Source of the DNA: an uncultured Erysipelotrichaceae bacterium | Lineage (GTDB): Bacteria; Bacillota_I; Bacilli_A; Erysipelotrichales; Erysipelotrichaceae | NCBI GenBank assembly: GCA_944327135.1 | Contig: CALVGQ010000018.1 | Span: 1-39,101, forward strand | Length of the DNA stretch: 39,101 bases | Reading direction: 5' to 3' | Shown here: piece by piece, positions 2,015 through 15,012 of the stretch | Position numbering within the stretch: position 1 is the stretch's first letter | Layout: each line of letters begins with the position of its first letter | Made by a program: the position numbers and the translations under genes | The notes under the pieces: model-generated | Told to the model about the DNA's origin: nothing | The model's database searches: none | Seen by the model: the letters and a program-made list of their open reading frames with translations, nothing else

Positions 2015-3292
2015 TTATTCACTCCCTTCCTTTCTTTCGGTCGGATCATTTTCAGGAGTGGACTCACCTGCAGACCCTTCGCTCTTGATTTCCTCCACCG
2101 ATCCGGAAAATTCGAAGGTCACTTGATTCAATTTTTCTTCCACGGATTCATTAGAGTTCTCAGTTGGCCCCGCCGTTTTTACCTCCAACACCTCTGCCGC
2201 TTCATTTTTCTTACGGCGCTTGCCTTTCTGGGGCAGCTTGACGTTCATTTCCTCATCCTCCAGCTGTTCCATGACATCTTTGCTGCGGGAAGTTTTGCTC
2301 TTGCTGCGATGGGCAAACAGGCCTTTGCCTTTCTGCGCTGCAGCTGGCGTCTGCTTCTTCACTGCCAGCTTGCCAAATAATCCGCTCTTCTCACTTACCA
2401 GACGGCCTTCTTCCACATTGATGGAACCTTTATCTCGCTGAATGACCTCCACCGGCTCTTCCACCACATAAAAGGATTTCCGGTCCACCACCCGGGTCCG
2501 GTTTTTGGAAAGCTCCGTTTCTTCATTGCACAGTGTTCTCAAAAGATACTCCCGCAATTCCTTGGAATTGACCGAACGGATCTTTCCATTTTCCGCAATG
2601 GAAATCCCTCCAGTTTCTTCAGAAACTACGATCGTAATCGAATCAGTAATCTCGCTGATTCCAATGGCCGCCCGATGACGCGCACCATAGCGATTAGGCA
2701 GCTCCAAATTGGTCGGCGGAAAATAAGCACTGGCACAGGCCAGACGATCCCCCTGAATAATGACAGCCCCATCATGCAGCGGAGTAGTCGTCACAAAAAT
2801 CGCTGTTAAAAGCTCGGTAGTCACCAGTGAATTCATTGGCGTACCGGTTTTAATATAATCGGAAAGCGACTGTCCTTGTTCCAAAGTAATCAGGGCCCCG
2901 GTCTGTTCCTTGGAAAGAATCATAGTCGCCTTCACTACTTCATCAACAAGATGTTCCTTCTCATTACCAGAAAGCGTTGAAATCTTAGAAAACATATTGC
3001 TTTTGCCAAGCCGTTCCAAAAGTGAACGAATCTCCGGCTGAAAAATGACGATGACCGCCAAAAATCCATAGGAAATAAAAATATCGGCCAGCCAGCCTAA
3101 TGTCGTCAAGCCAAAAAATTTCGCAATCGACTGAACGACCAGAACCAACACGATTCCTTTAAATATCTGAATCGTACGCGAATTATTCCGCACGATCTTT
3201 ATCGCATAATAAAGTATGAACCAGACGATCACAATGTCCGCAAACGCTCTTGTCCAACTCAATATCTCCTGCCATGTCTGGCTAAAATACAT
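2015..3292 (-). CDS. cdaA: Diadenylate cyclase CdaA with long charged C-terminal extension
   Basis: CdaA condenses two ATP into cyclic di-AMP at the membrane. Three hydrophobic segments lie at about residues 15-33, 41-60 and 66-86. The DAC (DisA_N) domain follows, with the catalytic DGA motif at 174-176 and the RHR motif at 205-207. The family is usually about 270-280 residues, but this protein has 425. From about residue 280 it carries some 145 extra residues rich in Lys, Arg, Glu and Ser with little hydrophobicity, probably disordered. The start is supported by a GGAGGGAGGAG stretch just upstream. It is first in the cdaA-cdaR-glmM operon. The enzyme core is certain; the role of the tail is unknown. 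Confidence 0.96.
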   Translation of the reverse strand: MYFSQTWQEILSWTRAFADIVIVWFILYYAIKIVRNNSRTIQIFKGIVLVLVVQSIAKFFGLTTLGWLADIFISYGFLAVIVIFQPEIRSLLERLGKSNMFSKISTLSGNEKEHLVDEVVKATMILSKEQTGALITLEQGQSLSDYIKTGTPMNSLVTTELLTAIFVTTTPLHDGAVIIQGDRLACASAYFPPTNLELPNRYGARHRAAIGISEITDSITIVVSEETGGISIAENGKIRSVNSKELREYLLRTLCNEETELSKNRTRVVDRKSFYVVEEPVEVIQRDKGSINVEEGRLVSEKSGLFGKLAVKKQTPAAAQKGKGLFAHRSKSKTSRSKDVMEQLEDEEMNVKLPQKGKRRKKNEAAEVLEVKTAGPTENSNESVEEKLNQVTFEFSGSVEEIKSEGSAGESTPENDPTERKEGSE

Positions 3293-3319
3293 TGCAGTCT
3301 CCTCCCTCCATGCCCTGAT

Positions 3320-3348
3320 ATTATACCATAGTTCAAAAAACCGATAAA
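3320..3348 (-). promoter_or_regulatory. Promoter of the cdaA operon
   Basis: On the minus strand a perfect TATAAT (3320-3325) with an extended TGG in front is preceded at 17 bases by a weak -35, TTTATC (3343-3348). It lies about 30 bases upstream of the cdaA start. Confidence 0.6.
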
Positions 3349-8129: not shown

Positions 8130-8157
8130 TTGAAATTTTTGCCATTGAGAGTATAAT
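8130..8157 (+). promoter_or_regulatory. Promoter of the panT-coaBC-coaX-maf operon
   Basis: TTGAAA (8130-8135), a 16-base spacer and a perfect TATAAT (8152-8157). It predicts a leader of roughly 115 bases before the panT start. Confidence 0.75.
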
Positions 8158-8163
8158 AAAAAC

Positions 8164-8260
8164 GCGCTGAAACCAACGAATCCAAGCCTAGGGGCAGGAT
8201 ATCTGAAAAAAACGTTTCAGTGCTGTGATTTCGTGAAGTTACATTGTATCCCGATGGGAA
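8164..8260 (+). promoter_or_regulatory. Structured 5' leader RNA upstream of panT (candidate cis-regulator)
   Basis: Three helices can be drawn in this leader. P1 pairs 8164-8173 with 8214-8223 (10 pairs, one G-U). It encloses a small hairpin: 8180-8183 with 8197-8200, and 8186-8188 with 8193-8195, with unpaired A residues between the two parts. P2 pairs 8224-8231 with 8236-8243 (8 pairs around a CGTG loop) and directly abuts P1. A third small hairpin, TCCC-GAT-GGGA (8249-8259), lies 8 bases before the AAGGAGG site. The adjacent genes are for pantothenate uptake and CoA synthesis, so a CoA- or pantothenate-linked control element is plausible. I cannot match it to a known class with certainty. 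Confidence 0.5.
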
Positions 8261-8279
8261 TGATAGTAAGGAGGAAATG

Positions 8280-8918
8280 ATGAAATCCAATGCTCTTCGT
8301 ATCCGTCAAATGGTCCTAGTGGCCTTATTTTCTGCCATTGAAATTATTTTATCGCTGACTCCGCTGGGATATATCCCGATTGGACCGATCCGCGCCACAA
8401 CGCTGCATATCCCTGTTATTCTAACAGGGATCCTATTAGGCAAGCGAAGCGGAGCGGCTGTCGGTTTTGTCTTTGGGTTTACCAGTCTGATGATCAATAC
8501 CTTTCAACCTACGATCACATCCTTTGTCTTCTCCCCTTTTATCTCGATTGGAGGATCCGAGGGAAATTTAGCCAGCTTGTGGATCGTTTTCGGTCCGCGA
8601 ATTCTTTTAGGATGGCTAAGCGGAGCCTTTTATGATGGTCTTTCTCGTCTGAAAGTAAATCAGGGTCTCGCCGTCATTTTAACTTCGGTATTGAATACCC
8701 TTTGTCACACGCTGCTGGTCATGGGATCGATTGCCCTTTTCTTTGGTCCCGCCTATGCCGCCGCACGCGGCATCCTTTATACCCAGCTGCTGAGCGTCAT
8801 TCTAGGCGTCATCACCAGCAACGGCATTCTTGAAGCAATCTTAGCCGGTATTCTTTGCGCGGCCATTGTTCGGGCATTATCCCCGGTTTTAAAAGAAAGG
8901 AGCTCTCATGCAAAATAA
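8280..8918 (+). CDS. panT: ECF transporter S component, probably pantothenate (PanT-like)
   Basis: A 212-residue integral membrane protein with about six hydrophobic segments and the ECF S-component pattern: a basic start, then LVALFSAIEIILSLTPLGYIP, a first-helix/loop signature shared by vitamin-binding S subunits. Such proteins bind the vitamin and join a shared EcfA-A'-T energizing module encoded elsewhere. Pantothenate is inferred from context: the next genes are coaBC and coaX, overlapping or a few bases apart. The start is ATG 8280, 5 bases after AAGGAGG; ATG 8277 is one codon earlier and less well spaced. Its 3' end overlaps coaBC by 11 bases. Confidence 0.82.
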   Translation: MKSNALRIRQMVLVALFSAIEIILSLTPLGYIPIGPIRATTLHIPVILTGILLGKRSGAAVGFVFGFTSLMINTFQPTITSFVFSPFISIGGSEGNLASLWIVFGPRILLGWLSGAFYDGLSRLKVNQGLAVILTSVLNTLCHTLLVMGSIALFFGPAYAAARGILYTQLLSVILGVITSNGILEAILAGILCAAIVRALSPVLKERSSHAK

Positions 8919-10104
8919 ACCTTGTATCGTCGTTGGTATCAGCGGCGGCATCGCCGCCTACAAAGCAGCTCAGCTGGTCAGCGATCTGCGCAAAAAAGAC
9001 TACGAGATCCACGTCATCATGACGGCGCATGCCGCGCAGTTCATCACCCCGCTGACGCTGGAAACGCTCAGTCAGAATCGGGTCAGCCTGGATATGTTTG
9101 ACCGTAATTTTGAATACCAGGTCCAGCACGTTTCACTAGCAAAAAAAGCTGACTGTTTCATCATTGTCCCTGCCACCGCCAACGTCATTGCCAAAATCGT
9201 CCATGGCTTGGCCGATGACATGCTGACAACGACGTTTCTAGCCGCCCGCTGTCCTAAGATCATCTGCCCGGCAATGAATACAGGGATGCTTGAAAATCCC
9301 GTTACCCGTCAGAATCTTCAGCTTTGTCAGCAGCTGGGATACACGCTGGTGGAAAGTGAAGCAGGCTTTCTTGCCTGCGGCGATATTGGAAAAGGGCGGT
9401 TGGCCGAGCTGGCTCAGATCGAGGAAATGATCGATCGCTCACTTTACCAGGATCGTTTTTTACTCAACAAAAAAGTCTTGATTACTGCTGGAGCCACTCA
9501 GGAAGCCTTGGACCCAGTACGCTATCTTACCAATCACTCCACCGGAAAGATGGGGTTTGCGCTTGCCAATCAGGCCGCCCGGCTTGGCGCTGAGGTCACA
9601 TTGATTGCTGGAAAAAGCGTACAGCTCAAGCCGCCCTATGGAGTCCGTCTGATTCGTGTCACTTCGGCACAGGAAATGTTTGAACAAGTCACACAGCTCG
9701 CTGAAAATCAAGATATTGTGATCAAGGCAGCCGCCGTAGCAGATTACACCCCATTGAATCCCGTGGATCATAAAATGAAAAAAAGTGATAAAGAACTGGT
9801 CTTACAGCTCAAGCGCACCCCAGACATTCTAGCCTGGCTGGGAGCCCATAAGCGACCGGGGCAGTTTCTTTGCGGATTTGCAATGGAAACTGAACAATTA
9901 ATTGAAAACGCAAAAGAAAAGCTTCATCGCAAAAATGCAGATATGATCGTCGCCAACAGTCTTTGTGAAGCAGGAGCGGGCTTCGGAACCGACACCAACA
10001 AAGTGACCCTCATTACCGCTTCCGAAATTCAGGAAATGGCCCTGCTTTCCAAGGAAGAGGTGGCCTTGGAAATCTTCAAAGCCATCCAAAACAGTCAGGA
10101 GTGA
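8908..10104 (+). CDS. coaBC: Phosphopantothenoylcysteine synthetase/decarboxylase
   Basis: A 398-residue bifunctional enzyme of CoA synthesis. The N-terminal flavoprotein CoaC part (1 to about 185) has GISGGIAAYKA, the active-site His at 74 (VQHVS), PAMNTGM at 121-127 and the catalytic Cys157 in FLACGDIGKGRL. The CoaB part (from about 187) has ITAGATQEALDPVR and NHSTGKMG, and a late KRTPDIL. It converts 4'-phosphopantothenate plus cysteine and a nucleoside triphosphate to 4'-phosphopantetheine. GGAG precedes the start, which lies inside the end of panT. coaX follows 4 bases later, so this is a pantothenate-to-CoA operon. Confidence 0.97.
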   Translation: MQNKPCIVVGISGGIAAYKAAQLVSDLRKKDYEIHVIMTAHAAQFITPLTLETLSQNRVSLDMFDRNFEYQVQHVSLAKKADCFIIVPATANVIAKIVHGLADDMLTTTFLAARCPKIICPAMNTGMLENPVTRQNLQLCQQLGYTLVESEAGFLACGDIGKGRLAELAQIEEMIDRSLYQDRFLLNKKVLITAGATQEALDPVRYLTNHSTGKMGFALANQAARLGAEVTLIAGKSVQLKPPYGVRLIRVTSAQEMFEQVTQLAENQDIVIKAAAVADYTPLNPVDHKMKKSDKELVLQLKRTPDILAWLGAHKRPGQFLCGFAMETEQLIENAKEKLHRKNADMIVANSLCEAGAGFGTDTNKVTLITASEIQEMALLSKEEVALEIFKAIQNSQE

Positions 10105-10108
10105 AACT

Positions 10109-10894
10109 ATGTTATTAACGATCGACGTCGGCAACACCAACATCACCATGGGTATCTATCATCAAGATGAGCTGGTTGCCAGTTTCAGAATGACGACCAA
10201 GACCCCCCGTACCTCGGATGAGCTTGGCTTTCTGCTATGCAACATGATGATCACCAAAGGCATCAATCCCGATGACATTGAAGCAGTCATTATTTCCAGT
10301 GTCGTCCCTAAAATCATGTATTCCCTGACCAGCTCGATTCGTAAATACCTTCATCGTGAACCCATGATCATCGGACCGGGAATCAAGACCGGAATTCGGA
10401 TCCAATCAGACAATCCCAAGGAAGTCGGCGCTGACCGGATCGTCAATGTTGCCGCGGCCTATCATACCTATCAAAAAGCCTGCCTGGTCATCGATTTTGG
10501 AACCGCTACGACGTACGATTATGTTTCCGATGAAGGCGTGTTCGAATATACCGTTATTTCTCCGGGAATTGAAATTGCCGCGCAAGCCTTGGTGTCTCAA
10601 ACAGCCAAGCTGCCTGACATCGAAATCAAGAAACCGGCAAGCATCTTAGCCAAGAATACGATTCAAGGCATGCAGGCCGGATTGGTTTATGGTTATATTG
10701 GTCAGGTCGAATACACAATCAAAAAGATCCAGGAAGAACTGAAACAAAAAATGATGGTCATCGCTACCGGCGGTCTAGGACGGATGATCGCTCCAGAAAC
10801 CAAACTGATCGATCTGTATGACCCTGATCTGGCTTATCGCGGAATGAAGATCATCTTTGAAAAGAACCGGGAGGTTTTCAACCATGAACACTAA
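10109..10894 (+). CDS. coaX: Type III pantothenate kinase
   Basis: A 261-residue cytosolic kinase that phosphorylates pantothenate, the first committed step to CoA. It has the ASKHA-fold motifs: DVGNTN at 6-11, the GADRIVN segment, DFGTATTYD with the catalytic aspartate, and GGLGRMI near the C-terminus. Type III kinases are not feedback-inhibited by CoA in characterised cases, which makes transport or transcript-level control more relevant here. It follows coaBC by 4 bases, with AGGAG overlapping the coaBC end. Its last codons contain the start of maf, giving a short overlap. Confidence 0.97.
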   Translation: MLLTIDVGNTNITMGIYHQDELVASFRMTTKTPRTSDELGFLLCNMMITKGINPDDIEAVIISSVVPKIMYSLTSSIRKYLHREPMIIGPGIKTGIRIQSDNPKEVGADRIVNVAAAYHTYQKACLVIDFGTATTYDYVSDEGVFEYTVISPGIEIAAQALVSQTAKLPDIEIKKPASILAKNTIQGMQAGLVYGYIGQVEYTIKKIQEELKQKMMVIATGGLGRMIAPETKLIDLYDPDLAYRGMKIIFEKNREVFNHEH

Positions 10895-11441
10895 GCTGAT
10901 TCTTGCCAGTCAGTCGCCGCGGCGCCGCGAATTGCTTCAGCTGTTGGCGATCCCCTTTGAAGTCATCCCTGCTAAGGTAGAAGAAAAGATCGATCCTGAT
11001 CGGGATCCGGCAGAGGAGATTCAGCGGCTGGCACAAAAAAAAGCCTCGTGGATCTTTCAAAGCCATCCCGATTCGCTGGTGATTGGAGCGGATACGGTGG
11101 TTGTGATCGACGGCATGATCTTAGGCAAACCCAAAGACCAAAAAGAAGCTCAGGCCATGCTCCATCGCCTTTCCGACCGGACTCACCAGGTCATCACCGG
11201 AGTTTGTCTGATCGATGCAAAACAAACCGACTGCTTTGTTAACATCACCGAAGTAACCTTCTATCCTCTCAGTGAAGAAGAAATCGATCGCTACACGCAA
11301 AGCAATGAACCGTTGGATAAAGCCGGCGCTTACGCAATTCAAGGTGCAGCAGCCCTTTTCATCAAGAAGATCGACGGTGATTATTACTCGGTAATGGGAC
11401 TTCCTATTGCCGAAATTGCCCAGCATCTAAAACACTTTTAA
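10884..11441 (+). CDS. maf: Maf/YhdE-type nucleotide pyrophosphatase
   Basis: A 185-residue cytosolic Maf/Ham1-fold enzyme. Characterised relatives hydrolyse dTTP, UTP and modified pyrimidine triphosphates, acting in nucleotide pool cleaning and septum control. The phosphate loop SQSPRRREL is at about residues 8-16 and GADTVV follows near 70. The DKAGAYAIQG segment is the usual C-terminal signature of the YhdE branch. GGGAGG sits 9 bases before the ATG at 10884, inside the coaX end; the in-frame TTG further upstream has no such support. It is the last gene of the panT operon; no strong terminator is seen before the tRNA promoter. Confidence 0.94.
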   Translation: MNTKLILASQSPRRRELLQLLAIPFEVIPAKVEEKIDPDRDPAEEIQRLAQKKASWIFQSHPDSLVIGADTVVVIDGMILGKPKDQKEAQAMLHRLSDRTHQVITGVCLIDAKQTDCFVNITEVTFYPLSEEEIDRYTQSNEPLDKAGAYAIQGAAALFIKKIDGDYYSVMGLPIAEIAQHLKHF

Positions 11442-11512: not shown

Positions 11513-11586
11513 GCCGCTTTGGTATAGTGGTAACACACATCCATGGTAAGGATGAGCGGGCAGTTCAATTCTGCCAAGCGGCACCA
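11513..11586 (+). tRNA. tRNA-Thr (anticodon GGT)
   Basis: The acceptor stem GCCGCTT pairs with AAGCGGC. The anticodon stem is CATCC/GGATG, with a loop reading A-T-GGT-A-A. The T stem is GGCAG/CTGCC around TTCAATT. CCA is encoded. Length is 74 bases. It is a single-gene unit with its own promoter and terminator. Confidence 0.93.
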
Positions 11587-14489: not shown

Positions 14490-14565
14490 GGAGGTTTAGC
14501 TCAGTTGGGAGAGCGTCTGCCTTACAAGCAGAGGGTCAGCGGTTCGAGCCCGTTAACCTCCACCA
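14490..14565 (+). tRNA. tRNA-Val (anticodon TAC)
   Basis: Acceptor GGAGGTT/AACCTCC; D arm GCTC/GAGC; anticodon stem TCTGC/GCAGA with loop CT-TAC-AA; CCA encoded. First of six tRNAs on one likely transcript. Confidence 0.95.
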
Positions 14566-14574
14566 TTTTTATTT

Positions 14575-14650
14575 GCCGACTTAGCTCAATTGGCAGAGCA
14601 ACTGATTTGTAATCAGTAGGTTGTAGGTTCAGGTCCTATAGTCGGCACCA
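14575..14650 (+). tRNA. tRNA-Thr (anticodon TGT)
   Basis: Acceptor GCCGACT/AGTCGGC; anticodon stem ACTGA/TCAGT with loop TT-TGT-AA; CCA encoded. A different isoacceptor from the tRNA-Thr(GGT) at 11513. Confidence 0.95.
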
Positions 14651-14665
14651 TTCAAAAACGAACAT

Positions 14666-14749
14666 GGAGAGGTAGCGAAGTGGCTAAACGCGGTTGACTG
14701 TAACTCAATTCCTTCGGGTTCGGCAGTTCGAATCTGCCCCTCTCCACCA
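14666..14749 (+). tRNA. tRNA-Tyr (anticodon GTA)
   Basis: Acceptor GGAGAGG/CCTCTCC; anticodon loop CT-GTA-AC; a long variable arm (ATTCCTTCGGGTT) as expected for a class II bacterial tRNA-Tyr; CCA encoded. Confidence 0.95.
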
Positions 14750-14769
14750 TCTTTATGGAAACAAGAACT

Positions 14770-14845
14770 TGGGGTATAGCCAAGCGGTAAGGCACCAGAC
14801 TTTGACTCTGGCATTTCCCTGGTTCGAATCCAGGTACCCCAGCCA
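14770..14845 (+). tRNA. tRNA-Gln (anticodon TTG)
   Basis: Acceptor TGGGGTA/TACCCCA; anticodon stem CCAGA/TCTGG with loop CT-TTG-AC; CCA encoded. Confidence 0.95.
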
Positions 14846-14857
14846 ATTTTTAAGAAT

Positions 14858-14933
14858 GTCCCGGTAGCTCAGGCGGTAGAGCAACTGACTTTTAATCAGT
14901 GGGTCGGAGGTTCGATTCCTCTCCGGGACACCA
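14858..14933 (+). tRNA. tRNA-Lys (anticodon TTT)
   Basis: Acceptor GTCCCGG/CCGGGAC; anticodon stem ACTGA/TCAGT with loop CT-TTT-AA; CCA encoded. Confidence 0.95.
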
Positions 14934-14938
14934 TCGGT

Positions 14939-15012
14939 GCGGATGTAGTTCAATGGTAGAACTTCAGCCTTCCAAGCTGACTACGTGAGTTCGATTCTCA
15001 TCATCCGCTCCA
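14939..15012 (+). tRNA. tRNA-Gly (anticodon TCC)
   Basis: Acceptor GCGGATG/CATCCGC; anticodon stem CAGC/GCTG with loop CT-TCC-AA; CCA encoded. Last tRNA of the cluster. Confidence 0.95.

Follow-up and report, generated by a model that had tools for sequence, protein, structure and literature searches.

The 117-nt leader in front of panT-coaBC-coaX-maf is, on comparison with its relatives, a new pan RNA variant with a diverged sequence, and it probably places pantothenate uptake and CoA synthesis under feedback control in a pantothenate-auxotrophic Erysipelotrichaceae bacterium. The leader is flanked by a promoter-like sequence at 8130-8157 and by these genes. Positions refer to the window, namely, the whole stretch of 39,101 nt that was analysed. 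The features of the region are as follows.

8130-8157, + strand: predicted sigma-70-type promoter, TTGAAA-16-TATAAT, matching 11 of 12 consensus positions
8164-8223, + strand: P1, 10-pair enclosing helix (8164-8173 with 8214-8223), from the fold and a flank-pairing test in 62 leaders
8178-8203, + strand: unit 1, diverged pan-type hairpin GA-AUCCA-[A]-GC..GC-AGGAU-[A]-UC, from its place and spacing
8225-8242, + strand: CGTG-loop helix (8225-8231 with 8236-8242; eight pairs including 8224-8243), from the longer fold
8240-8269, + strand: unit 2, pan-type hairpin UUAC-AUUGU-[A8248]-UC..GA-AUGAU-[A8265]-GUAA, from model R3, a genome scan and the consensus pattern
8270-8274, + strand: Shine-Dalgarno sequence GGAGG, directly after unit 2, from the sequence
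8280-8918 (start 8277 or 8280), + strand: panT-like ECF transporter S component (PF12822, E 1.8e-19), with coaBC next
8908-10104, + strand: coaBC (PF02441 and PF04127)
10109-10894, + strand: coaX, type III pantothenate kinase (PF03309)
10884-11441, + strand: maf-like gene (PF02545), last in the operon

The original prediction held that the genes behind the leader import pantothenate and make CoA, and the PF12822 domain of the panT-like protein and the domains of coaBC and coaX agree with this. No panB, panC or panD was found in the genome of the window, which comprises 2.05 Mb and is 96% complete. Among 146 related genomes, panB exceeded the cut-off in one and was missing from the other 145. 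The targets of the element were always CoA-salvage genes, namely, panT, a second panT copy (locus L167) and standalone coaBC-coaX (L172 and L173). In L167, the panT copies lie 2.8 kb apart, and tandem pan-type leaders occupy 390-483 and 3242-3336; the first precedes panT-coaBC-coaX, and the second is situated just upstream of groES-groEL-like genes. In the window itself, a seventh tRNA gene (11513-11583) is located just past the maf-like gene, and a six-tRNA array is found at 14490-15009.

A transcription start downstream of the helices had been named as one finding that would speak against a leader. From the promoter at 8130-8157, transcription is predicted to start near 8163-8165, just ahead of the first helix and upstream of all of them. 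In 56 of 64 relatives, an exact TATAAT occurred in the 70 nt preceding unit 1; 10.6 were expected from shuffles. The three helices that had been proposed for the leader were all recovered by folding and by inspection of the sequence, including the third hairpin just before the ribosome site, which corresponds to 8240-8269 and is followed by GGAGG at 8270-8274. Folding alone was only moderately better than chance and gave modest support, with z of −1.9 for 8130-8290 and −2.3 for 8163-8279, 7 of 200 shuffles folding as well in each case. The hairpin inside the 10-pair helix (8178-8203) exists as proposed; in the fold, its stem is interrupted by an AA/A internal loop and by the bulged A8201. The original prediction saw bulged As in this hairpin, but the two that are conserved, A8248 and A8265, belong to the third one. 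The 8-pair helix with the CGTG loop was present in the longer fold but was absent from the minimum-energy fold computed from the predicted start site, in which the third hairpin formed with both bulged As. The CGTG helix and the outer pairs of unit 2 share nucleotides and compete with each other. A role as a switching element was considered for it and rejected because the helix is not conserved, no counterpart being visible in the linkers of relatives. It is probably incidental, specific to the window and outside the pan-type element.

In unit 2, each strand has a bulged A, the bulges are five pairs apart and the inner pairs are UC/GA. A model of unit 2 built without the window (R3) assigned 32.4 bits to 8240-8274, with an E-value of 9.4e-7 for a search of the window. 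When the full unit-2 model (R1) was run across the 2.05-Mb genome, unit 2 was the only real match, and the runner-up (18.7 bits) fell inside a phosphate-transport gene. R1 also matched pstA of the same genome as well as nfo-, rsmE- and nadE-like genes, but these matches lie inside coding sequence and were discarded as chance. The consensus pattern of unit 2 occurred once in the window, compared with 0.02 expected. The position of the hairpin relative to the ribosome site was also fixed: an SD-like core starts right where unit 2 ends in 63 of 88 relatives.

For the comparison, panT-like proteins were identified in 128 of the 146 related genomes, and 120 upstream regions were examined. Most of these carry the consensus CRUYGYAUCY..RGARYGAYAGURGGAGG before the ribosome site. 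The design that was searched consisted of two outer pairs, an A on each side, five pairs and two inner pairs, which are mostly UC/GA in relatives. It was present in 82 of the 120 regions versus 4-11 of 120 in dinucleotide shuffles, and the other 15 bulge-letter pairs matched 0-6 of 120 regions; the design was drawn up after the sequences had been viewed, and the bulge-letter control treats all sixteen combinations alike. Pairing was observed in 97.2% of cells in unit 2 (85.0 ± 0.8% with shuffled partners, 25-62% with slid partners) and in 92.5% in unit 1 (57.7 ± 1.7% shuffled), percentages that are inflated by the limit of one mismatch placed on the covariation sequences. The variety of compensating pairs is not inflated by this limit. 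Both sides had changed at 8 of the 9 pairs of unit 2 and at all 11 pairs of unit 1, for which the covariation score was 0.935 versus 0.253. Compensatory changes, the check that had been suggested for the relatives, are thus plentiful in both hairpin units, and the comparative support for unit 2 is overwhelming.

Unit 1 was also present in 57 of 83 relatives that have unit 2, while unit 2 alone forms the whole element in several relatives (L004, L026 and L050). In most Solobacterium/Erysipelotrichaceae MAG loci (L032, L033 and L035-L041), the element was not found near panT. A phylum sample of 392 genomes yielded matches in 48, of which the convincing matches belong to families f1, f2, f13 and f10. 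The alignments and models demonstrate a predicted bulged-A hairpin at the ribosome site before panT-coaBC-coaX, usually accompanied by a second one on an enclosing helix, in at least four families. Two side observations were made in these loci. In L090 and L096, the pan-type hairpin (about −52 to −26 relative to the panT match) seems to share sequence with the tail of the preceding coding region, and no promoter is obvious between the two; L005 contains a ribosomal protein L20 leader at 2804-2922 (54.8 bits, slightly under Rfam's cut-off of 58.7).

The first hairpin of the window is more diverged. It has the exact spacing and the expected place, GC inner pairs and one A.A mismatch (8184.8196). 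A unit-1 model that left the window out gave it 3.8 bits, which is not above background, and it is a probable degenerate copy of a pan-type hairpin. The evidence for the helix around it is good. Across 62 leaders, the sequences flanking unit 1 paired with their own partners at a mean of −12.5 kcal/mol versus −8.84 ± 0.34 kcal/mol with swapped partners, and the pairing of the window's own flanks ranked first of the 62. By this comparison, the 10-pair helix of the window is the conserved enclosing helix of unit 1.

The pan motif (RF01749; Weinberg et al. 2010, PMC2864571) has the consensus uGGgcgGU-A-UC..GA-ACcgc-A-CCa, a linker, CuGCCUgG-A-UCc..gGA-CcGGG-A-CaG and AaGG. Bulged As on opposite strands, the five-pair spacing and the UC/GA inner pairs are common to this motif and unit 2. 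The panT leaders also share with it the contact between the second hairpin and the Shine-Dalgarno sequence and the pantothenate pathway. The tandem order, which most but not all pan RNAs have, recurs in many relatives, whereas in the window the first copy is only a probable one. They differ from it in that the first hairpin stands on an additional enclosing helix and in that a terminator form occurs in two relatives. Moreover, the pan motif is located ahead of panB, panC or panD, whereas the leader described here precedes panT-coaBC-coaX-maf in a genome without these three genes. A possible relation to pan had been raised in the original prediction and was supported in substance, although the match is carried by the geometry of the third hairpin and not of the first.

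The covariance search against Rfam that had been proposed gave a divided result, as the pan model was silent on the window and scored 21-32 bits, below the cut-off, in relatives. For the leader, nothing reached a gathering cut-off, and at E 10 only chance matches were returned, without pan. RF01749, the gathering cut-off of which is 36.2 bits, had no match above it across the 146 family genomes or over the class and phylum samples. In the same 146-genome scan, two of the three best matches lay directly upstream of panT. With the same model, the panT leaders of L123, L096, L066 and L090 scored 32.0, 23.4, 22.5 and 21.3 bits, respectively. Weak matches in L133, which is not beside pantothenate/CoA genes and looks like chance, and in L124, which does not adjoin panT, were dropped. 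The two leader types are joined by L177, a locus of genome G097 from the same order, in which two perfect bulged-A hairpins (about 2362-2466, minus strand) precede panB-panC-panD. This genome holds the only panB above the cut-off among the 146 relatives, and no other panBCD leader was found within the order. One of the two hairpins is matched by RF01749 (25.9 bits, its sole match) and the other by the panT-trained model R2 (22.1 bits), so the panBCD and panT leaders were linked through recognition by both models. Since the leader of the window falls below the Rfam cut-off and precedes genes other than panBCD, it was filed as a diverged pan variant and not as a member of RF01749.

THF, TPP and FMN riboswitches precede ECF vitamin transporter S components, where a leader RNA with a large, validated aptamer provides feedback on vitamin uptake. 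The leader described here resembles them in this role but not in structure, and no Rfam matches to THF, TPP or FMN riboswitches were obtained in it. Pan leaders of panBCD operons have been detected by RNA-seq in the 5' UTRs of Bacillus methanolicus (PMC4342826) and Paenibacillus riograndensis (PMC5670726); as here, the element is transcribed in the 5' UTR of a pantothenate operon, but those operons serve biosynthesis in vitamin makers, unlike in the auxotroph. In the literature searched, which was largely without subscription papers, neither a pan effector nor a pan RNA ahead of panT or coaBC was reported.

An unrelated RNA element that converged on the same bulged-A hairpin, without homology to pan, could account for scores of RF01749 that stay below the curated cut-off throughout the family and for genes that differ from the classic panBCD set. 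It would have to arrive independently at the same bulge letters, five-pair spacing, UC/GA pairs, tandem layout, Shine-Dalgarno contact and vitamin pathway, and the panBCD leader in the same order is recognised by both models. Accordingly, convergence is considered very unlikely. The modest folding energy (z about −2) would also suit a structured 5' UTR without a regulatory role, for example, one that only stabilises the mRNA. Such a UTR would hardly be expected to show invariant bulged As, compensatory changes and a fixed distance to the Shine-Dalgarno sequence in dozens of genera, nor to be reused ahead of other CoA genes, and this explanation is regarded as extremely improbable. Conservation, compensatory change and the predicted start upstream of the helices all favor the cis-regulatory leader for pantothenate/CoA genes that had originally been suspected.

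As for the mode of action of this diverged pan RNA, an effector would bind the bulged-A hairpins when pantothenate or CoA is plentiful; the effector is most likely a protein, possibly dimeric, with the metabolite itself as the less likely candidate. The bound effector would keep the second hairpin closed beside the Shine-Dalgarno sequence, and translation of panT would be blocked. No helix that directly covers the Shine-Dalgarno sequence was found in the leader; therefore, we infer repression by an effector bound next to it. A different output is suggested by L172 (455-540) and L173 (409-500), two genomes of one genus, in which a tandem pan-type leader is followed by an intrinsic terminator ahead of standalone coaBC-coaX. 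Pairing is possible between the 5' arm of the terminator and the 3' arm of unit 2, with duplex energies of −9.4 and −8.1 kcal/mol, respectively. With unit 2 closed, the terminator is free to form, so transcription should be switched off whenever the hairpin is present, which fits feedback repression.

Whether the effector is a protein or a metabolite bears on the main alternative, a pan-type riboswitch in which pantothenate, phosphopantothenate or CoA would itself be the ligand of the bulged-A hairpins and no protein would take part. Conserved single-stranded As next to a Shine-Dalgarno sequence or a terminator are suited to a switch, all targets belong to CoA salvage, and genomes without panBCD leave pantothenate and downstream compounds as the sole signals. 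However, an aptamer of only 25 nt, formed by one hairpin with two bulged As, would be very small, the leader consists of unit 2 alone in the several relatives named above, which favors a bound protein, and the tandem pan form has been read as pointing to a dimeric protein (Weinberg et al. 2010). In addition, as of 2022, riboswitches for CoA were not known (PMC9971707). A protein effector is thus at least as likely as a metabolite ligand, and the riboswitch is an unlikely reading. Its fullest form, with the hairpins as the receptor of the first known pantothenate/CoA riboswitch and one 25-nt hairpin next to the ribosome site as the simplest example, is quite unlikely. CoA was described as a missing riboswitch ligand in reviews from 2022 (PMC9971707, PMC10043782), and a CoA-sensing RNA, if true, would fill this gap in the riboswitch list.

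Since panB, panC and panD were missing from the genome and panB was found in a single relative, a signal made only during pantothenate synthesis is unlikely for the diverged pan RNA, and pantothenate or a downstream compound, such as its phosphorylated products or CoA, is the most likely signal. Rfam's pan model misses this whole clade. The panT leaders display both likely outputs, at the translation start and at a terminator, and provide very small natural constructs. The occurrence of the variant in pantothenate auxotrophs argues against pantoate, ketopantoate and beta-alanine as the pan signal. For the pan RNA, which has been unexplained since 2010, the panT variant would therefore narrow the candidates to the compounds from pantothenate onward to CoA.
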